A DNA stretch of 64,000 bases, from NCBI GenBank assembly GCA_030431255.1, contig JAUIJL010000009.1, forward strand, positions 248,001 through 312,000, in the 5' to 3' direction. Under the pieces are notes generated by a model. That model did not search any database and was not told where the DNA came from. It saw only the letters and a program-made list of their open reading frames with translations. Within the stretch, counting starts at the first letter, position 1, and each line of letters begins with the position of its first letter. This DNA comes from Thermoanaerobaculia bacterium. GTDB taxonomy: Bacteria; Acidobacteriota; Thermoanaerobaculia; Multivoradales; J023. The position numbers and the translations under genes were made by a program. This document shows, piece after piece, positions 39,623-52,262 of this stretch.

Positions 39623-40525
39623 CTACCTCCCTGGACCGCCATACCCGGTGCCCTGGACCAATTCCGTCAACAGCGCGCCGAGGCGATAGCCGGCCAAGGC
39701 GATGCGACGGCGAGCCACCAGCCGGCTTTTGACCTGGTAGACCTCCGACGGGGCGCGGCCTTCGGAGATGCCGACGTAGACCACCGAGGTCGCCAGATGG
39801 AAGCTTTCCTGGGCCCACACGGCGGGATCCAGCTCTTGCCATTCCGGCAGGGTGTCCTCGGGTACCGCAGAGACGATCTGCTTAGCGAGGGTCCGCACCG
39901 TGGCCGCGTCTTCCTCCGTGCCTTCGAGATTGGGCAACAGACCCAAGGTGCCGTCCCACAATTGATGCAGATTGCTCGGCTCGCCCTCCAAATCCAACAA
40001 CAGAAAATCGTTGCCACCACGGTCGCCCTTGGGATGCTCGGCGGTGATCCGGCTGGTGGCGTGCAGGGGCTGGTGCAGATCTCCGGCCACATGCAACAGC
40101 ACCCGCAGCATGATCGCTTTGGCCAGATCCGGGGATTCAGGGTTGCGAAGGGTGGCCATGGCCTCGCGCACCGCTTCCACCGCATTGTCCGTATCGACCT
40201 CGGGGACCGACGGCAACCCGCCGGCGTTGTAGGGAATGTTGATGTAGTGCCAACGGCGAAACGATCTCCAGCCCGCGGCCTGGGCTTGGTCCATCCACAG
40301 GGAAGCCGTCCGGATGCTTGCGTTTTTCGGCTCGAAATCCCCTAGGACCGCCACCAAGCGTTCGACTTCTTGGGCCACCTCCGGATCGAGACGTTGATAG
40401 GCGATTTCGGAGATCACCATATGGCCGGCGGCGCGCCAGGCCGAGGCCGGCCCGGCGACCATCATCATGCCGAGCACAAAAGCACCGACCGCCGAGATCA
40501 GCCTCCGGCTCCCCGAGCGCTTCAC
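39623..40525 (-). CDS. S1/P1-type nuclease, secreted
   Basis: 300 residues. A signal peptide (VGAFVLGMMMVAGPASA) is cut just before Trp (WRAAGHMVISEIAYQRL); in S1/P1 nucleases this N-terminal Trp is itself a zinc ligand. Further ligands are visible in RRWHYINIPYN, LLHVAGDLHQPLHA and DRGGNDF. The enzyme family cleaves single-stranded DNA/RNA and releases 5'-nucleotides. The GTG at 40525 overlaps the stop of the M28 peptidase gene (GTGA), with GGAGG upstream. It is the last gene of the operon that begins with the Pup-like gene. Confidence 0.85.
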   Translation of the reverse strand: MKRSGSRRLISAVGAFVLGMMMVAGPASAWRAAGHMVISEIAYQRLDPEVAQEVERLVAVLGDFEPKNASIRTASLWMDQAQAAGWRSFRRWHYINIPYNAGGLPSVPEVDTDNAVEAVREAMATLRNPESPDLAKAIMLRVLLHVAGDLHQPLHATSRITAEHPKGDRGGNDFLLLDLEGEPSNLHQLWDGTLGLLPNLEGTEEDAATVRTLAKQIVSAVPEDTLPEWQELDPAVWAQESFHLATSVVYVGISEGRAPSEVYQVKSRLVARRRIALAGYRLGALLTELVQGTGYGGPGR

Positions 40526-42006
40526 CGCCGTTGATCCTCCGGTGCCGGGCGGTAGTCGTCCGCCGGCACCAATCGATCCGGCATGTCCGCCAAGACATAA
40601 CCCATGACCCCGAGCACGGCGATGGCCCGGCGGAAATTTTGGGGATTCACCTTGTCGAGGGTGTCGGCGTGGGTGTGATGCCAATCAAAGTAGTGCTCGC
40701 CGACCGTGCGCAGACCCAGGCCGGGCACCCCGTCCCACATCAAGTCGCGAATGTCGGCTCCGCCGCCACCGCGCAAGATTTGTGACGCCTCGATGCCCTC
40801 GAGCAGGGAACCGATCTCCTGGAGCTGCTCGAACGCGCGCTCATAGACGGGATCCCCGGACTCCGGATCGATGCCCGACAGGCCGAAGCCGTAGCCCACG
40901 GGTTTCTCGGCACCGCCGTCCATCTCGATGGCTGCTACGTGGGTGGTGACGTCGTCTCCGAGACCCTGGCGATAGGCCTTGCCGCCGGCCAGCCCGTTTT
41001 CCTCATTGGTCCACAACACGACCCTCAGGGTGCGCCGGGGTCGCAGACCGAGCTGATGGATGAGATTCAAGGCCTGCCACACGGCGATACAAGCCGCACC
41101 GTCGTCGTGGGCGCCGTGACCGACATCCCACGAGTCGTAATGCCCGCCCATCACCACCACCTCATTCGGCAGCTCGGAGCCGGTGATCTCCGCCATCAGG
41201 TTGTAGCTCTGGGCATCGGGCAGGGTTTTGGCGCCCATTTCGAGATGTACCGTCACCGTTTGTCCGTGCGCTTTCATCCTCTTGAGCCACTCGGAATCCT
41301 CGACGGTCATGGCCGCGGCCGGGATCTTCGGCACTTCCTCGTCGTAACGCAGGGCGCCGGTGTGCGGGGTCGACAAGCTGGCGCCGGTGGCCGAGCGCAC
41401 CAACACCGCCACCGCGCCCAAGGCCGCCGCCCGAGACGCGCCGGTGCCTCGGTAGCGGACCGTCTTGCCGTAACCCATCCAAGGCACGGCGTAGGCGACG
41501 ATTTTGCCCTCGACCCCTTCCCGGCCCAGGGCCTCCAGCTCCTCAAAGCTCTCCACCACCACCACCGGTGCGGTGACGCCACCTTCGGGGGTGCCGACGC
41601 TCATGCCCAAGCCCAGGATCGTCATGGGGCGAGGCACCGGCGAGACCACCCGCGCCGACTCCTCACCACGCACCCAATGGGGCACCATCACCGATTGCAG
41701 CTGGATGTTCTCCAGACCGTCTTTGCCCATCTCACCGTGGGCCCACTCGATGGCCAGCTCGAGGGCCTTCGAGCCGCTCAGCCGATGTCCGATCACCGTC
41801 GATAAATAATCCAGGCGATCCCAGCCCTGGTCGTCCGCCAGGGCGGCGCCGAGGATCTGACCGGCGGGCTTTCGATATTGCTCCTTGAGGCTTTGCTCCG
41901 ACTCGTCGGATGCCGGCGTGTCGGCAACGCAAACGCCGGCGAGGACCAAGCTGCAGAGCCCAAAGAAGAGGAAAGTGACGGATAGGGATGGACGGTGAAT
42001 CATCAT
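40522..42006 (-). CDS. Secreted M28-family zinc aminopeptidase with PA domain
   Basis: 494 residues with a signal peptide (LFFGLCSLVLAGVCVA). A PA (protease-associated) domain lies at about 125-270 (APVVVVESFEELEALGREG, then AVAVLVRSATG). The M28 catalytic domain has every metal residue: GGHYDSWDVGHGAHDDGAA, WTNEENG, EMDGG and HHTHADTLD. These di-zinc enzymes remove N-terminal amino acids or act as carboxypeptidases outside the cytoplasm. The ATG overlaps the stop of the preceding membrane-protein gene (ATGA), and its own stop overlaps the nuclease start. Confidence 0.88.
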   Translation of the reverse strand: MMIHRPSLSVTFLFFGLCSLVLAGVCVADTPASDESEQSLKEQYRKPAGQILGAALADDQGWDRLDYLSTVIGHRLSGSKALELAIEWAHGEMGKDGLENIQLQSVMVPHWVRGEESARVVSPVPRPMTILGLGMSVGTPEGGVTAPVVVVESFEELEALGREGVEGKIVAYAVPWMGYGKTVRYRGTGASRAAALGAVAVLVRSATGASLSTPHTGALRYDEEVPKIPAAAMTVEDSEWLKRMKAHGQTVTVHLEMGAKTLPDAQSYNLMAEITGSELPNEVVVMGGHYDSWDVGHGAHDDGAACIAVWQALNLIHQLGLRPRRTLRVVLWTNEENGLAGGKAYRQGLGDDVTTHVAAIEMDGGAEKPVGYGFGLSGIDPESGDPVYERAFEQLQEIGSLLEGIEASQILRGGGGADIRDLMWDGVPGLGLRTVGEHYFDWHHTHADTLDKVNPQNFRRAIAVLGVMGYVLADMPDRLVPADDYRPAPEDQRR

Positions 42007-43043
42007 TTCTCGGTCTCCGGCTGGGAGCCGTCGCGCGGCTCCGTCGTGTCTTCGGTCGGATTGCTTGGGCTTGAATCTCTTGGGCTTGGTGCGCCCGGCG
42101 TTTCTGAAGAAGCTTCGATGGGCTCGTTCTGATCTCCGTAAGCATCGGGCTCCGGAAACGAATCGGGCTCGGGCTCAGCCTCCGAGGACGGATCAACGGC
42201 GTCCTCAGACTCTTCCTCCGGCTTCTGGAAAGCCTGCGTCGATACCTCTGGGGACCCCGGGAACCCCTCGGACCCTGGGGACCAAGCATTCACTGCTACT
42301 GCGAGCCGGCACAGGCCAAATAGGGTACCTGCTACGGCTAGGCACCGAGCCCACAGGGTCAGAGACCCGGTACCGGCATGGTTGAGGGTCGCCCAAGCGA
42401 TCGCGATAAGGGCGGCCCACTGCAACGCACCCCATAGGGCCGACTTCGCAAACACCCTGGGTCGACGACAAGCGTCGCGAAAAGCGCTGATCGTGGCGCG
42501 GGGATGCCAGCCGGATTGGAGCGCAAACACGACCCGGCACCGGGCCAGGTCGAGGGTGAAGGAACAGAAGCAGAGCAGCGCCAAGATGACCAACAAGAAC
42601 GGCAGGGGTATTCCATGCTCGAAGGCCTTGCTCAACGCCACGAAGGGCAAGACCACCAACACCAATCGGATCGGAATATGCCACAGGGTCACACCGATCA
42701 AGCCGCCAGCGGAACGCAGACCGACCGCCGCCAGGGACGACAACGACGACGATTGCCGAAGGGCGGCGATCACGCCCCCCAGGCTGATCCACCAGACCCC
42801 TAGGGTGATCAGCAACGCGACTGCGGACAGAATCGGGAAGTATTTGAGAAACCCACCACCACCCGACATCAGCTCAAAGAGCCCGGCGAGAAATTGCTCG
42901 CCACCGCCCCAAACATAACCCTTCATGCCCCCGCTCACGCTGGAGCCGATGGACACGCGAAGCAGCAGCACGGCGACCCCTTGAATCGCCAGCACCCACA
43001 GCCAGACTCTGAATTTTCGCAACACTTGAATCAACTCGCTCAC
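42003..43043 (-). CDS. Polytopic membrane protein with acidic Pro/Ser-rich tail
   Basis: 346 residues with about five or six hydrophobic segments (VWLWVLAIQGVAVLLLR, FPILSAVALLITLGVWWI, LVLVVLPFVALSKAF, PFLLVILALLCFC, ALWGALQWAALIAIAWATL, CLAVAGTLFGLCRLAVAV). The last ~90 residues form an acidic low-complexity tail (EPEPDSFPEPDAYG). No family is recognised. The GTG at 43043 overlaps the TGA of the M1 peptidase gene and has GGAGG 9 bases upstream. It sits between two secreted aminopeptidases in one tightly overlapped operon, so it may organise or export one of them; that is only an inference. Confidence 0.7.
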   Translation of the reverse strand: MSELIQVLRKFRVWLWVLAIQGVAVLLLRVSIGSSVSGGMKGYVWGGGEQFLAGLFELMSGGGGFLKYFPILSAVALLITLGVWWISLGGVIAALRQSSSLSSLAAVGLRSAGGLIGVTLWHIPIRLVLVVLPFVALSKAFEHGIPLPFLLVILALLCFCSFTLDLARCRVVFALQSGWHPRATISAFRDACRRPRVFAKSALWGALQWAALIAIAWATLNHAGTGSLTLWARCLAVAGTLFGLCRLAVAVNAWSPGSEGFPGSPEVSTQAFQKPEEESEDAVDPSSEAEPEPDSFPEPDAYGDQNEPIEASSETPGAPSPRDSSPSNPTEDTTEPRDGSQPETEK

Positions 43044-45202
43044 GGCAAGAACCCTCCGAGGATCACCCAACCCAGAGCTTCGGTGATCTCCGCCACCGGG
43101 CCGCTCAAGCCGTCGCCAGGCGGATCGCCGTCCCTCGGCCGATATCGGCGGATGTTGTTCAGCCGATGATGCTCCAACAACAATTTACGGTCGGGGTCCA
43201 CCTCGGCCCGAACCACCCGTTTCCCGGGCCATTCGAAGGTTTTGTAGGGATCGTTGCCCTGCCAAATCCGGCGCTCCGTGGAGCCGTCCTCGAATTCCAC
43301 CTCGAGCTCCACGGGAATGTGGAAATAACCCACCCTCTCGACTCGCACCACGGACTTCACTTGAGCATCTTCCAGCTCGTCGATCTCCTCGTCCAGGTAC
43401 CAAGGGGTCTCCTCGCCCCCCACCAGGCTGCCGTGCTCGTCTCGACGCCAACCTTCATCCCCCACCAAACGTTGATGGCTCAAATAACCGAGGGAGAAGT
43501 CGACGATGCGCACGGTCCTCAGGGCTTGCTCGAAGTAGGCCTCCAAGTCGAGCTGCACGCTGTCGCCCACGGCGCGGGTCGGCAGGGTGGGATTGGACCC
43601 CAAACGCTCGATGAAAAGACCTTCCAAATCCCGACCGCGGGGGTGTCGGAAACGAGCTTGCTCACCGTATTCCCGGAAGACCGCGTCGAACGCCTCGTGG
43701 CCGAGCAAATTGCGCAGGGTCAGCATGAGAGTGGCCGTCTTTTGATAGATGGTGACTCCGTAGCTCCCCGGCAACCCGGCAAAGGCTTGAGCGGGGCTGT
43801 CGACGGGGATCAGATTGGCCCGCCGACCGCCCGCCAGCAATCCCAATATGTCGGTGTGGTAGACCTTTTGGGTGCCGATTCTCACAACCCAAGGATCTTC
43901 GTAACGATCCAAATAGGCCAAGATATTCGACATGGAATTGAGGCCTTCATCGAGCCAGGGCTGCTCGTGCTCGCGGGTGGCGAAAAGGCCTTGAAAGTAT
44001 TGATGGCCGAATTCATGCACCGTGGTGAACACACCGCTCATGCGCTCGTCCATCACATGGCGACGAAACCAAGGCGGGATTTCCGCTCGATCGCTGGAGG
44101 TGAAAAGGGTGGGATATTCCATGCCCCCCGCCCCTTCCGCTTCCTCCGGAGGGTGCACGATGGTGATCGTGGACCACGGATACGGTCCGTAGCGCGCCTC
44201 GTAGCTGTCGAGGGCGGCGATGGTGGCGGCTTCGTGGTCGGCGGCGGTATCCACCAGGTCCGGTTGGATCAGCTGCCGGATGCGGATGCCCTTGTGCTCG
44301 CCGTCGACGATGACGAAATCCCGATCGGTCATCCACACGAAATCGTGGACCATCTCCGCTCGGTAGGTCAGGCGCTTGCGGCCGTCCTCCAGCTCTGCTT
44401 CGGCGGTTCGGATGCCGGTGGCGCCGACTTTGACGTCCGCGGGCACGTCCAGCTCCACGTGATAGTTGCCGAAGTCGGCGTAGAACTCATCGTTGGGCGT
44501 GAAGGTATGCGCTTGCCAGCCGTCCTCGTCGAGCACGCCGATCTTCGGATACCACTGGGCCACGGAATGAAAGCTGTCGCCGAAACCCGTGCGCGCCACC
44601 ACCTTGGGCAGCTGGGTGACGAATTTCAGCTCCAGCTCGATGTCCTGACCGGGCCCCACCTCGACCGGTAGCTCGACGGTCATGGTGGAAGGATCCGCGT
44701 CTTCCCGGAACGGCAGTGGAATCGCTTCGGCGGCAGGGGATTCGGGATCCCCGGTCGTGCCCGACGCCATGGTCACCTCGGTGACGTCGATATAACCCCA
44801 CGGCCCCTCTTCGTGCTGGGTCGAGCGTCGGTGTCGCCCGAGGGCTTGGCTCATCCAGGCCGTGTTCTCAGCCCGGAAGCCGTTCATATATAAGTGGAAG
44901 GGCACCGTATTGACGGTGAGCTCCGTGGTATTCCGCCACAACACCCGAGCCGTGCCGGTCACCCGGTGGGCCTCGGCGTCGAGGTAGGCTTCGAGCCGAT
45001 AATCGGCAATGCGGGCCTCGGGCAGCACGCCCCCGCCCAGCTCCGGAGAGCGCAAGGCGGATTCCGGCTCGGGCAGAATCTTAGGTTCCGGCGGCGCATC
45101 GGAGCACGCAGCCATCAGGCCCACTAGAGCCAAAACCCCTACCAACCCACGAGCCGATCTCCCGAAGAGTCGCCGACCCGCAATGCTCACACCCTCGATC
45201 AT
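43040..45202 (-). CDS. M1-family aminopeptidase lipoprotein
   Basis: 720 residues. A signal with lipobox (VGVLALVGLMAACSDAP) predicts lipid anchoring. The M1 catalytic signature is complete: the substrate loop GGMEYPTLF (GxMEN-like), HEFGHQYFQGL (zinc His pair and catalytic Glu, about residue 394), and the third ligand Glu in HEQPWLDEGLNS. An N-terminal beta domain and a C-terminal helical part are consistent with the family. AGGAGG lies 7 bases before the ATG. It follows the PafA/Dop-like gene by 63 bases on the same strand. The role is presumably removal of N-terminal residues from peptides at the cell surface. Confidence 0.88.
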   Translation of the reverse strand: MIEGVSIAGRRLFGRSARGLVGVLALVGLMAACSDAPPEPKILPEPESALRSPELGGGVLPEARIADYRLEAYLDAEAHRVTGTARVLWRNTTELTVNTVPFHLYMNGFRAENTAWMSQALGRHRRSTQHEEGPWGYIDVTEVTMASGTTGDPESPAAEAIPLPFREDADPSTMTVELPVEVGPGQDIELELKFVTQLPKVVARTGFGDSFHSVAQWYPKIGVLDEDGWQAHTFTPNDEFYADFGNYHVELDVPADVKVGATGIRTAEAELEDGRKRLTYRAEMVHDFVWMTDRDFVIVDGEHKGIRIRQLIQPDLVDTAADHEAATIAALDSYEARYGPYPWSTITIVHPPEEAEGAGGMEYPTLFTSSDRAEIPPWFRRHVMDERMSGVFTTVHEFGHQYFQGLFATREHEQPWLDEGLNSMSNILAYLDRYEDPWVVRIGTQKVYHTDILGLLAGGRRANLIPVDSPAQAFAGLPGSYGVTIYQKTATLMLTLRNLLGHEAFDAVFREYGEQARFRHPRGRDLEGLFIERLGSNPTLPTRAVGDSVQLDLEAYFEQALRTVRIVDFSLGYLSHQRLVGDEGWRRDEHGSLVGGEETPWYLDEEIDELEDAQVKSVVRVERVGYFHIPVELEVEFEDGSTERRIWQGNDPYKTFEWPGKRVVRAEVDPDRKLLLEHHRLNNIRRYRPRDGDPPGDGLSGPVAEITEALGWVILGGFLP

Positions 45203-45265: not shown

Positions 45266-47053
45266 TTAGGCTCCGGATGGGTCGGCCGACTCGCCGGTCG
45301 AGGATGGGGGCGGGGACGAGGCCGGGGCCGAGGACGGAGATGCCGAGGGAGACGGGAAACTAACCACTTTCGGCCGCAACCAGCTGCCCAAATGCACCGA
45401 ATCCCATGAAATCGCGGCGGACACGGCCATGCCTTGGTGATCTCGAATCCACCGGCCGCGGAAACGGGCGGGGCTTTGTCGGGGCGGCTCCAACATCGCC
45501 CGACGGGTTTCCTGCTCGGTGACCAACACCGGGGCCAAGCCGTCCCGCTCCAGGCGTGCCAAATAGCCGTTGCCCAGCTCGTGGTAGCGCAAGTCCAAGG
45601 TTTTGAGCACCGACTCCGAGCCCGTGGGAGCGCATTCTTCGAGCAAAGCCCGTTTGGTGATCCAATCCAATCGTCCGACCAACGATTCCTGCTCACCGCG
45701 CTCCAGCCGATCCAAGATCTCGCCCCACAGCCGAACCAGCTGAAACGCTTCCATGGAGGGAGAGCTCGCTTGTTTCAGATAGGCATTCGCTCGGCGCTGG
45801 TAGTCCCGCTGGATTTCCAGAGCGGACATGGACGCGGGTTCCTCCCCCTTTCCCTTCCGACGCAGCTCAAAGGTCTCCGAAAGGGCCGGATCCCGCACCA
45901 GGCGATGGAGCGCGTCCATGGGCCGCGCGAGCCGTGGGGCGTCGTCCAAGAAACCGTCTTCCATCATGTCGAGCACCAAAGAGGTGGCTCCTACTTTCAG
46001 CAGCTCGGCAGTCTGGGCCATGTTGGAGTCGGACAATCCCAGCTGTAGCCGCTGACGTCGGTAGAAAAGCGGTGGGATGGAGATCCGCCGGAAGTCCATG
46101 CCGATCAATAGCTTCTTGAGCAAATTGCCGGGATCGAGCACACAGCGATCCGCCGGCGCGATGGTCCAACGCATGACCCGCCGAATCACCGGCCCCTTTT
46201 CCGACAAGCCGAACCGCCCTCCCGGCTCGACGGTGCCGGCGCCGGTCAAGATCGGACGGGTGATCAAAAAGGCCAAGGCGTGCTTGCGGACGTCGCGAAA
46301 AGCACACAGCCGCAATAGCAGGAGATGGGGCAACATCACGGGAAAGGACAACCCATAGGAAAGCCAAAGCGACAATTTTCCCAGGGAGTCCTCAAATTCC
46401 GAGCCGCCATCGGCGACGGCACTCAGCCATCGCCACCGGCGCAGGGCCGGCACCAAGCTGTGCATCAACATCAGCACCAGAAAAAAAGGTACCAAGGTCA
46501 GCACCAGAGCCGCTTGGACCAGCCACGCGAAAGCGGTCCACAACATCACCCACGGCAAGAGAACCGCCATGCCCAGGCGATAGGCCGCGAGCCAAAAGCC
46601 ACGGCCGATATCCGCTTCGTAATTTTCTTGGGCGCCGTAGCGATGGCCTTCGGCGTCGCGGCAGTTTTTGAGCAGGCCCAATTCACCGCTGAAGCTGCCG
46701 AAGGTGATCCTTTCGACCTCGGCGACACATTCGAACAACAATAGATCCTGAGCTTTTTGATAGAGCAGCAGCTGGGACGGGCTGCGGCATTCCGGAGTCG
46801 CGCCTTCGATCAGGCCGCCGGTGGTGCAATGGGGGAGGTGCTCGTAGCTGAAGGCGCCGCCGTTCTGGGTGAACAGCTCTTGTTTTTGGCGCATGCCACG
46901 GCCGGGGCGGGTGGCCACACGGGCTCGCAGCTTGGCGCGAACATGCTCGAAGATCCGCCGATTACCCGGTGAGGATCCGGGCAATCCGAAGCGGATCGCA
47001 TATTCGGTTTCGAGACCGATCAAACGCCGGAGCACCGGCGTCGAGCGTGTCAT
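45266..47053 (-). CDS. PafA/Dop-family Pup ligase-like enzyme with a membrane insertion
   Basis: 595 residues, clearly PafA/Dop-like: RLIGLETEYAIRF (PafA R.MGIETE), QNGGAFSYEH with EGATPECRSP (PafA NGA..Y..AEC), LLKNCRDAEGHRYGAQENY, FLITRPILTGAG, LGLSDSNMAQTAELLKVGA, SALEIQRDYQRR, RLDWITKR and LDLRYHEL. The DSNM form is nearer PafA than Dop (DANL), and the ~40-residue Dop loop seems absent. Between ENY (145) and ITRP (264), where PafA has only a short linker, there are ~110 residues with two or three hydrophobic stretches, e.g. AFAWLVQAALVLTLVPFFLV. A Ser/Pro-rich tail ends the protein. It starts 24 bases after the Pup-like gene, with no clear Shine-Dalgarno sequence, suggesting coupling. Ligase versus depupylase cannot be settled from sequence. 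Confidence 0.85.
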   Translation of the reverse strand: MTRSTPVLRRLIGLETEYAIRFGLPGSSPGNRRIFEHVRAKLRARVATRPGRGMRQKQELFTQNGGAFSYEHLPHCTTGGLIEGATPECRSPSQLLLYQKAQDLLLFECVAEVERITFGSFSGELGLLKNCRDAEGHRYGAQENYEADIGRGFWLAAYRLGMAVLLPWVMLWTAFAWLVQAALVLTLVPFFLVLMLMHSLVPALRRWRWLSAVADGGSEFEDSLGKLSLWLSYGLSFPVMLPHLLLLRLCAFRDVRKHALAFLITRPILTGAGTVEPGGRFGLSEKGPVIRRVMRWTIAPADRCVLDPGNLLKKLLIGMDFRRISIPPLFYRRQRLQLGLSDSNMAQTAELLKVGATSLVLDMMEDGFLDDAPRLARPMDALHRLVRDPALSETFELRRKGKGEEPASMSALEIQRDYQRRANAYLKQASSPSMEAFQLVRLWGEILDRLERGEQESLVGRLDWITKRALLEECAPTGSESVLKTLDLRYHELGNGYLARLERDGLAPVLVTEQETRRAMLEPPRQSPARFRGRWIRDHQGMAVSAAISWDSVHLGSWLRPKVVSFPSPSASPSSAPASSPPPSSTGESADPSGA

Positions 47054-47077
47054 AGAAGGGAGAGACGACCCCCGCGC

Positions 47078-47257
47078 TTATTCGCCGCCTTCCGGCACGA
47101 GAGACTCTGCCGGATAGCGGTCGGATTTGGCCAGCGCATCGGCGGAAATATCGTCCACCGCGGCCCGCCAAAGGTCGGTCGGGCTGCGCTCATGCCGTTG
47201 CTCTTGGCTCGAGGCATCAGAGGTTTGGGTAGCAGGTGCAAATGCGTGTTTCATCAT
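47078..47257 (-). CDS. Pup/UBact-like small modifier ending Gly-Gly-Glu
   Basis: 58 or 59 residues, depending on which of two adjacent ATGs is used. A strong AAGGAG lies 4 (first ATG) or 7 (second ATG) bases upstream. The N-terminal half (AFAPATQTSDASSQEQRHER) is polar and looks disordered. A helix-like part follows (TDLWRAAVDDISADALAK), and the end is SLVPEGGE. Pup of Actinobacteria is of similar size, disordered, and ends GGQ or GGE. The Glu form can be ligated without deamidation; UBact proteins of other phyla also end in Glu. The gene directly precedes a PafA/Dop-family gene. No sequence identity to a named Pup can be verified by eye, so the call rests on size, C-terminus and context. Confidence 0.7.
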   Translation of the reverse strand: MMKHAFAPATQTSDASSQEQRHERSPTDLWRAAVDDISADALAKSDRYPAESLVPEGGE

Positions 47258-47654
47258 CGGTCTCCTTATGCTTAGGCTAGCACAGGTCGGAGAGACCTTC
47301 AGCTGCAGACCGACGCGGATCGCCCGCGGTGATTGGGGCACCGGATACCTGACGGCAATCCGCGCCGGTCGCGACCTGTAGATCCGAGAGAGCGGATCAC
47401 AGGCGAAGAAAACAAACTCCCTCGTCATCCCTTTCCCTTGTCGGATGCGCTTATAGAGCTAGCATCCGCGGTCCACCCCGCCCCCCACAGGCAAACGATT
47501 TTGACGGACGGTGTACCACGCCCTCCCCAAAGGCCTTCCGCCTCCTCCAGCCCGCTCCGTGGGTCTCTTGTGTAATAACAGCGATAAATCACCCTAAAAG
47601 GGATCATCGATCCGTATTTTTTTTCTGATCCGAGCCGATGTGGTCTTATTGGGC
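47258..47654. promoter_or_regulatory. Divergent region between the Pup-like operon and the S24/S26-like gene
   Basis: No convincing gene is present. On the minus strand, TGTGCTAGCCT about 20-30 bases before the Pup-like start resembles an extended -10 promoter element. A run of eight or nine T residues lies near 47617-47625, just before the S24/S26-like gene. A 60-codon frame on the minus strand (47425-47607) has no supporting signals. Confidence 0.3.
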
Positions 47655-51678: not shown

Positions 51679-51817
51679 CTGGATGAATGATCTCCATGAG
51701 CTGGTACCGAGCGACACCAGAAAAGAAGACAGCGAGAAGCTGAAGTACAATGGATGGAGGAGACCGTCTTCTGAAAACCTACCCCTCCAGCAACCTCAGA
51801 TCCCGACGACCCTCGCT

Positions 51818-52063
51818 ATGACACAACACCTCACTATCGAGTTCCCAGAATCCGCGAAGCTTCCACAGGGTTTGGCCGAAGACCAAGACTTTCTTCGTTA
51901 TACCGTCGTGGCTTCGCTCTATCAGCGAGGCAAGCTCTCAGGAAGAGCAGCTCGTGAGCTGACCGGTGACTCTCGACGGCGCTTCGAAGAGAAGATGGCC
52001 GAGTACGGCTACCCACTCTTAGGATCTGAGACAGACGACATCTCCGCAGAGCTGAACGCCTAA
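51818..52063 (+). CDS. UPF0175-family antitoxin
   Basis: 81 residues from MTQHLTIEFPE. The family pattern is visible: EDQDFLRYTVVASLYQRGKL, then SGRAARELTGDSRRRFEEKM and AEYGYPLLG. UPF0175 proteins are small helix-turn-helix antitoxins paired with PIN-like DUF3368 toxins. Such a toxin gene follows after 4 bases. A longer frame from 51683 adds 45 unrelated residues and is rejected. It lies 139 bases after dnaE2. Confidence 0.75.
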   Translation: MTQHLTIEFPESAKLPQGLAEDQDFLRYTVVASLYQRGKLSGRAARELTGDSRRRFEEKMAEYGYPLLGSETDDISAELNA

Positions 52064-52067
52064 TCCA

Positions 52068-52262
52068 ATGCCCCGACTTGTCGTCAGCGACACGGGTCCC
52101 ATCATTACGCTGGAAAAGCTGCCCGATGGTTTCGCCCTTTTGAGAAAGCTCTACGACAAAATCCTGCTACCCGAAGAAGTATTGGAAGAGCTTGCCGAAG
52201 GCTTCGAGACCCCTGAGGCCTATTTAAATCACTTGGAAGCGGTGAAAGCACAGGCCACCTAG
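52068..52262 (+). pseudogene. Truncated DUF3368 PIN-like toxin
   Basis: 64 residues begin like DUF3368 toxins: LVVSDTGPIITLEKLPDGFALL then LYDKILLPEEVLEEL, with the first PIN-domain Asp in SDTGP. Full-length members are about 150-170 residues. Here the frame stops after HLEAVKAQAT, so the rest of the PIN catalytic acids is missing. The toxin is probably inactive, and the antitoxin may remain as a regulator or remnant. Confidence 0.7.

Follow-up and report, generated by a model that had tools for sequence, protein, structure and literature searches.

A small Gly-Glu-ending protein encoded beside a predicted membrane-anchored PafA/Dop-family enzyme in a Thermoanaerobaculia genome

A 64,000-nucleotide stretch of the genome of a Thermoanaerobaculia bacterium (phylum Acidobacteriota; assembly GCA_030431255.1, contig JAUIJL010000009.1, positions 248,001 to 312,000), referred to here in its entirety as the window, contains a two-gene locus coding for a small protein with a C-terminal Gly-Glu, which we call the tag, and an enzyme of the PafA/Dop family with a hydrophobic insert. 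Both genes are on the minus strand, and the enzyme open reading frame (ORF) begins 24 nucleotides (nt) 3' of the tag ORF. The features of the locus, in window coordinates, are as follows.

47262..47267, minus strand: Shine-Dalgarno-like AAGGAG for the tag gene (from the sequence)
47078..47257, minus strand: small tag gene, 58 or 59 amino acids, ending SLVPEGGE (sequence; 30-member alignment A3)
45266..47053, minus strand: PafA/Dop-family enzyme, 595 amino acids (PF03136 profile; AlphaFold2 model)
46271..46618, minus strand: hydrophobic insert, enzyme residues 146-261, from core strand 4 to the FLITRP segment (alignment with PafA/Dop homologues)
46454..46600, minus strand: insert helix 1, long, residues 152-200, the most hydrophobic stretch (AlphaFold2, hydropathy)
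46304..46402, minus strand: insert helix 2, long, residues 218-250 (AlphaFold2)

The tag ORF has two candidate start codons, ATG 47257 (59 amino acids) and ATG 47254 (58 amino acids), spaced 4 or 7 nt from AAGGAG, and its stop codon ends at 47078. A first-pass annotation of the window had reported this arrangement, a 58- to 59-residue ORF ending SLVPEGGE with a ribosome site and lying 24 bases before a PafA/Dop-family gene, and the report holds: the enzyme matches PF03136 with an E value of 3.3e-71 and a score of 241 bits (cut-off 25) over profile positions 1-440 of 441. Nor is the tag end a product of chance, as a DNA pattern for VPEGGE-stop has a single match in the 10.2-Mb genome, the tag site, with none for the reversed control pattern, and one match in the window compared with none in 100 shuffles. 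Among 5882 ORFs of at least 40 codons at loci L011-L039, a tag-like ending, defined after the tags had been inspected, is present in 28, all of them directly upstream of the enzyme. The tag-enzyme gene pair is real and conserved.

Conservation extends well beyond the window. A small upstream ORF ending VPEGGE or VPGGGE is present in all five enzyme-bearing relatives of the window's order, and an alignment-based scan of named genomes finds an upstream ORF with a GE end at 28 of 29 named loci; the two sets overlap (four of the five relatives are the contigs of L011, L012, L014, and L017), and the 29 loci, selected by the presence of either of two short peptide patterns, are not a census. In a later planctomycete set of 17 previously unused loci, 12 have a GE-ending ORF upstream, with L064 showing only the ORF end at a contig edge. 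In alignment A3, which has 30 tags and includes a few of 49 amino acids owing to the start codon chosen, G57 and E58 are invariant, D39, Y47, and G56 are present in at least 90% of members, and the consensus is LxxxxxxIRxDxxxxPxxYLxExxVPxGGE. The ratio of nonsynonymous to synonymous substitution rates (dN/dS) of the tag is 0.13-0.27 in six close pairs, which, all coming from two trios of loci, do not count as independent observations; the saturated pair L020/L027 was excluded. By this measure six of the seven usable pairs show purifying selection on the tag.

The enzyme has a PafA/Dop fold, as judged from an AlphaFold2 model built with a 25-row alignment (mean predicted local distance difference test score [pLDDT] 88.6, predicted template modeling score 0.89). 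The closest solved structure is Dop (Z 38.9, root-mean-square deviation [rmsd] 2.5, 422 residues), PafA with Pup matches at Z 34.7, and the best eight structure-match rows, all Dop or PafA, span Z 34.7-38.9 with rmsd 2.2-2.9 over 373-427 aligned residues. Foldseek agrees, and among the rows listed glutamine synthetases and glutamate-cysteine ligases match at Z 11.5-18.9. The alignment used for modeling (A2, 25 rows) and that used for residue comparisons (A4, 27 rows) each cover only part of the loci.

The first-pass annotation had counted some 110 extra, mostly hydrophobic residues after ENY145 and predicted a membrane-bound enzyme; the count is borne out, and hydropathy and two models support the membrane reading. 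The insert between ENY145 and F262 is 116 residues long with a mean Kyte-Doolittle hydropathy of +0.84, whereas the same stretch is 17, 27, and 24 residues in three insert-free PafA/Dop homologues. It follows directly after QENY of core strand 4 and forms the two long helices of the window model; a second model, of the planctomycete member L020 (pLDDT 91.1), has helices at 145-157, 159-193, and 221-248. The 17 residues before F262 include at least two Arg/Lys and no more than one acidic residue in 26 of 27 members, with one of each in L034, and the loop between the helices is near neutral overall, with L034 strongly acidic. We note that in L034 (7989-10091) this loop, with 42 acidic and 18 basic residues, is extended by about 120 very acidic ones, giving an insert of 241 residues. 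The charge pattern together with the modeled helices is consistent with a core that lies in the cytoplasm and a chain that crosses the membrane an even number of times.

Active-site residues were compared between the 27 aligned members and six PafA/Dop homologues of the window's phylum, with L017 (broken frame), L018 (odd N terminus), and L039 (contig-edge fragment) excluded from the alignment and the tree. No member lacks GhExE or the acidic residues of the ATP/Mg site; E15 and E17 of GhExE, E83, E88, R335, D463, W464, K467, R532, and W550 are present in 27 of 27, and a family-specific segment following Gly309 holds Lys313 in all 27. The two checks named in the first-pass annotation, conservation of the small gene with its C-terminal end and retention of the ATP/Mg residues in the ligase core, come out largely in its favor. 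The spacing from GhExE to NG, a rough test for the Dop-loop, is 52 in the window enzyme and 50-55 in the 27 members, compared with 44 in the PafA homologue L040 and 73 in L041, a Dop over its cut-off; the enzyme is thus likely to be without a Dop-loop.

The enzyme is usually the only one of its family in its genome, and no proteasome partner over cut-off accompanies it. The window's own genome has one PF03136 gene, and of 30 other pair-carrying genomes 26 have one match, G362 has two, and G345, G352, and G363 have three, such that 27 of 31 have a single gene, own included. The first-pass annotation had seen no proteasome gene nearby, which holds. In the whole genome the sole PF00227 match is HslV, whose gene also contains the best 20S beta match (21.5 bits, cut-off 191.9), and pup_AAA scores at most 136.8 bits (cut-off 504.75). 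Neither 20S beta nor pup_AAA is over its cut-off in any of the 31 pair-carrying genomes, many of which are draft assemblies in which single absences are weak evidence. Both cut-offs are passed in the control genome G064, which encodes a Dop over its own cut-off and a protein nearest to PafA, along with a tag that ends GGE; a second control, G303, has pup_AAA at 333 bits, under the cut-off, and no 20S beta match at 1e-3.

Some genomes with additional family members are of interest in their own right. In the planctomycetes G345 (C394), G352 (C75), and G363 (C433), which also have the membrane pair, two distant PF03136 genes stand side by side, possibly as a second, separate Pup/UBact-type system, and in G363 they are directly preceded by the gene of a pup_AAA-like ATPase that scores 116 bits, which is below the cut-off. 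G618 has two full-length membrane-type enzyme matches (L069 and L083) with upstream ORFs ending TQQQGE and VVPDGGE, and two tag-enzyme pairs may coexist there.

The enzyme is present in 6 of 72 genomes of the window's order, own included, and the sole other genome of the genus is without a match; in a sample of 297 genomes of the phylum, 8 have any PF03136 match, own included. In the class of L020, 21 of 297 sampled genomes match A2 at 1e-20, and 18 of these give 19 full-length matches; two of the 19, L062 and L063, are the loci L020 and L038 again, and leaving them out gives the 17 later loci; L080-L082, L084, and L085 are partial or distant and uncounted. The records of the 27 aligned members are labeled Acidobacteriota, Myxococcota, Pseudomonadota, and Planctomycetota, labels that may err for metagenome-assembled genomes, as shown by L011, which is labeled Deltaproteobacteria and is a contig of G010 in the window's order. 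In the tree, a branch with support of 100/100 separates the 27 members from the six PafA/Dop homologues, and within the family there is an 18-row group (17 labeled planctomycete and one unlabeled; support 99/98) and a 9-row group with the window (labeled Acidobacteriota, Myxococcota, and Pseudomonadota; support 89/91). An all-against-all BLASTP of the ORFs of the 29 loci and the window found no neighbor besides the tag recurring across lineages in the flanks covered; clusters other than the enzyme and opposite-strand overlapping ORFs are small. When the genes closest to the pair are picked out with a simple codon-position score, similarity is confined to close loci, except for a weak one among L033, L034, and L035. 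Most neighbor genes were compared with each other rather than annotated.

We consider it reasonably probable that the pair is a membrane-anchored, one-enzyme cassette in which the terminal Glu of the tag is ligated, through its gamma-carboxylate and with ATP, to membrane-located amines, most likely lysines. The enzyme would be a carboxylate-amine ligase of the glutamine synthetase fold, anchored in the inner membrane by its insert, and its catalytic core would face the cytoplasm. The enzyme would bind the conserved C-terminal part of the tag, which is probably disordered, phosphorylate the gamma-carboxylate of the terminal Glu with ATP, and ligate the activated Glu to an amine, most likely on lysines of membrane or membrane-located proteins. 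No deamidation would be needed because the tag already ends in Glu. As R46 (58-residue numbering) is the last Lys or Arg of the window tag, the predicted tryptic remnant on conjugated lysines is YPAESLVPEGGE, joined via its terminal Glu. Because there is mostly no second PF03136 enzyme and in no genome a 20S or Mpa gene over cut-off, tagging would more likely serve regulation, or deliver its target to a general protease (FtsH, for example), than act as a proteasome signal. The same biochemistry and membrane anchoring are predicted in the relevant part of PMC2588565.

Several observations weigh against this interpretation. The enzyme falls well short of the PafA equivalog TIGR03686 (169 bits, cut-off 551), as it does of the Dop equivalog TIGR03688 (150 bits, cut-off 492), and L047 scores nearer PafA yet has a GhExE-to-NG spacing of 76, which shows how rough this test for the Dop-loop is. 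The membrane passes may number two, as the two long helices of the models would suggest, or four, the number of segments given in PMC2588565. Several active-site residues conserved in the six homologues are systematically replaced, by alignment: Asp by Glu71 (26 of 27) and Arg by Ala67 (27 of 27), His by Gln142 in strand 4 (26 of 27) and by Gln337 in strand 6 (27 of 27), Arg by Lys286 (26 of 27), and Arg/Lys by Gly309 (27 of 27), so the chemistry could differ from that of PafA and Dop. In Dop, as set out in the sections of PMC8599861 on these residues, D94 most likely activates water, R227 and H241 contact the bound phosphate mimic, and H155 stacks with a Dop-loop residue near the active site. 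By residue numbering, H155, R227, and H241 correspond to Q142, G309, and Q337 of the enzyme, and from its spacing to the next conserved Glu, D94 would correspond to E71. Two of the motifs are already written [HQ]x[NH] and [QH]x4D in the motif descriptions of PMC2588565. The 17 later loci do not all share the strand-4 Gln, with HENY in L073, L075, and L083 and QHENY or QHESY in L076-L078 (the inserts of L071, L072, and L074 were unread in the scripted comparison), and the active-site pattern, as an alignment result, is firm for the 27-row set only and weaker in more distant loci.

The tag and the wider genome add to these reservations. Conservation of the small gene and its GE end, on which the first-pass annotation made its reading depend and which is seen at most loci, breaks down at 5 of the 17 later planctomycete loci (L070-L073 and L075), where no upstream tag ORF was found in the available stretch, and at L013, where a small membrane-protein ORF stands upstream of the enzyme in the place of the tag and no ORF ending G[GED][EQ] was found elsewhere in the locus. 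The close pair L036/L037 has a dN/dS of 0.65. The search of the tag against Pup families that the annotation had proposed came back empty for Pup: at E 0.1, searches of Pfam and NCBIfam with each of the 30 tags list no Pup model (PF05639 or those of NCBIfam). An hhalign comparison with one proteasome-linked tag gave 11% probability and E 0.0027 (for that one comparison) over 21 columns that exclude the GGE end, and a PDB profile search had a best E value of 0.47, to unrelated proteins. With no profile match and a weak 21-column match, homology of the tag to Pup is not established by these comparisons. Sub-cut-off matches to 20S beta occur in 11 of the 31 pair-carrying genomes (21-34 bits, strongest in G359) and to pup_AAA in 28 (up to 211 bits, in G362); we read these as HslV and other AAA proteins, a reading checked on the window genome's own HslV, and such matches also come from common genomes such as that of E. 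coli. Finally, both conjugation itself and its membrane targets are steps that we infer.

Other roles for the pair have to be weighed against ligation of the tag to membrane amines. It is unlikely that the small protein is a carrier or scaffold, for which LysW is a precedent, or a ribosomal-peptide precursor, with the enzyme adding a small amine to the terminal Glu for biosynthesis. A short Glu-ending peptide does adjoin a carboxylate-amine ligase, but a biosynthetic path would be expected to have a neighbor recurring across lineages, which the 29 loci and the window do not offer; the enzyme folds like PafA/Dop and not like the small-substrate ligases, and the membrane insert would be left unexplained. 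We regard as distinctly improbable a Dop-like enzyme that is mainly a deamidase or depupylase, or that works in both directions. The model is slightly closer to Dop (Z 38.9) than to PafA (Z 34.7), and as the sole family member in its own and 26 of 30 other genomes, tag removal would fall to this enzyme. However, by its spacing it has no Dop-loop (with the caveat of L047), Glu-ending tags leave nothing to deamidate, and a pure depupylase would need a ligase, for which the own genome has no other PF03136 gene. The phosphate-holding R227 and H241 of Dop, moreover, align to Gly309 and Gln337 (PMC8599861, sections as above).

The acceptor might also be other than a protein, although we give this a quite low probability: an aminolipid such as phosphatidylethanolamine, or another membrane amine, would make the system an analogue of Atg8/LC3 lipidation on a glutamine synthetase fold. 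The hydrophobic insert, the family-wide remodeling of the active site relative to PafA, the lack of 20S or Mpa over cut-off, and the lack of a further recurring gene are all in keeping with this, but characterized PafA uses lysine, and membrane-protein substrates explain anchoring equally well. Very improbable, in our estimation, is the broader proposal of a third Pup-type branch, comprising one tag and one membrane enzyme with an active-site pattern of its own, that would label the membrane itself, the tag Glu being joined to an aminolipid as a bacterial counterpart of Atg8-phosphatidylethanolamine conjugation that arose from the glutamine synthetase fold. Least probable is that the pair has lost catalysis and survives as a relic, degenerate or regulatory. 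Its active site does differ at several positions that are conserved elsewhere, but the replacements are themselves conserved in 26 or 27 of 27 members across four labeled phyla, the acidic ATP/Mg residues are present in all 27, and purifying selection on the tag is indicated in six of seven usable pairs.

Several other genes are located around the pair. Four of them follow the ligase gene on the same strand (window 39623-45202, minus) and possibly form one operon: an M1-type peptidase ORF (PF01433) that starts 63 bases after the ligase, then a membrane protein at 42003-43070, an M28 peptidase at 40522-42006, and an S1/P1 nuclease at 39623-40684. The M1 peptidase, the membrane protein, and the M28 peptidase were considered as partners and rejected, as they do not cluster with neighbors in relatives. 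Only the S1/P1 nuclease ORF has counterparts near the pair, downstream at L011 and L012, two loci of the window's order. Small membrane proteins of two kinds follow the enzyme in L020/L030 and L021/L022, one precedes it in L013, and one lies two genes downstream in the window; no membrane-protein gene recurring across lineages was seen. No phage link was found either: none of the 22 pattern matches in an A1 scan of viral contigs encodes a relative. Elsewhere in the window (51683-52262), a UPF0175 gene is followed after 4 bases by a 64-residue ORF without a Pfam match, which resembles the start of a PIN-type toxin; the two are perhaps a truncated toxin-antitoxin pair.

If the 2008 prediction of membrane tagging is true, membrane targets are protein-tagged without a proteasome, and pupylation is not solely a degradation signal. 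The minimal two-gene cassette and the named loci in several phyla (by record title) make this prediction directly testable, with the conserved tag end predicting a mass-spectrometric mark and the family-specific residues offering targets for mutation. The enzyme family also bears on the origin of ligase versus depupylase, because it forms a separate branch and because single-copy planctomycete homologues were used as the outgroup of the PafA/Dop tree, as stated in the tree description of PMC7947786.

Three groups of known enzymes invite comparison. The pair is like the actinobacterial PafA-Dop-Pup system in its PF03136 family, fold, C-terminal Gly-Glu tag, and placement of the tag gene beside the ligase, and unlike it in having mostly one PF03136 gene (27 of 31 genomes, own included) instead of a PafA/Dop pair, no Mpa or 20S over cut-off, a membrane insert, a tag missed by Pup profiles, and several replaced active-site residues. 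UBact-type systems of Gram-negative bacteria also combine a small tag ending GGE or GGQ with a PafA relative, and they are linked to proteasome genes; the window pair shares the small GGE-ending tag and PafA relative and is without linked proteasome genes. Loci L042-L045 and L048-L051 (in G303, G195, G165, and G269, other genomes of the window's phylum), with two PF03136 genes per genome and adjoining tags ending QQGGQ or QEGGE, may be of the UBact type, and the three aligned members of this set (L045, L049, and L051) have no insert. Glutamate-cysteine ligase and glutamine synthetase are distant fold relatives with small-molecule substrates and no tag.

The loci found here include records labeled Pirellulaceae and Nannocystaceae, which we take to be the families of Rhodopirellula and Plesiocystis. 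In these two genera, Iyer, Burroughs, and Aravind described in 2008 a Pup together with a Pup ligase that bears a transmembrane insertion, found no linkage of the two to proteasome genes, and suggested that membrane-associated proteins are what the system modifies (PMC2588565, passages on this system). The features given there for Pup-type modifiers (50-90 amino acids, C-terminal G[EQ], ligase-adjacent gene) are found in the window tag, with its 58 or 59 residues, GE end, and 24-nt gap. Compared by this published description rather than by the sequences of those systems, the window pair is alike in the small G[EQ]-ending gene adjoining a PafA-family gene, the hydrophobic insertion directly C-terminal to core strand 4, the unlinked proteasome genes, and the predicted location at the cytoplasmic face of the membrane. 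It is unlike them in belonging to an Acidobacteriota genome, in that no constantly linked membrane-protein gene was found at the present loci, and in the two long helices of the models as opposed to the four transmembrane segments stated. In the open-licence PMC literature, among the matches listed, the transmembrane form was found described in PMC2588565 alone and no experimental test of the prediction was found; PMC2837639, in the portion concerned, discusses the 2008 work, and a term search of the 2025 review PMC12288473 gave no occurrence of planctomycetes, membrane, or UBact in the text searched.

The window pair is thus a further member of the kind predicted in 2008 and not a new kind, because a Pup with a transmembrane-insert ligase was already published then (PMC2588565, as described above), and the first-pass view of a membrane-located, non-proteasome pupylation-like pathway, partly supported as an overall interpretation, does not hold as regards its newness. 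What is added to the published system are the members in Acidobacteriota, the single-enzyme cassette, the tags unseen by Pup profiles, and the family-specific active-site pattern, together with the later tag test, the insert models, and the partner survey.

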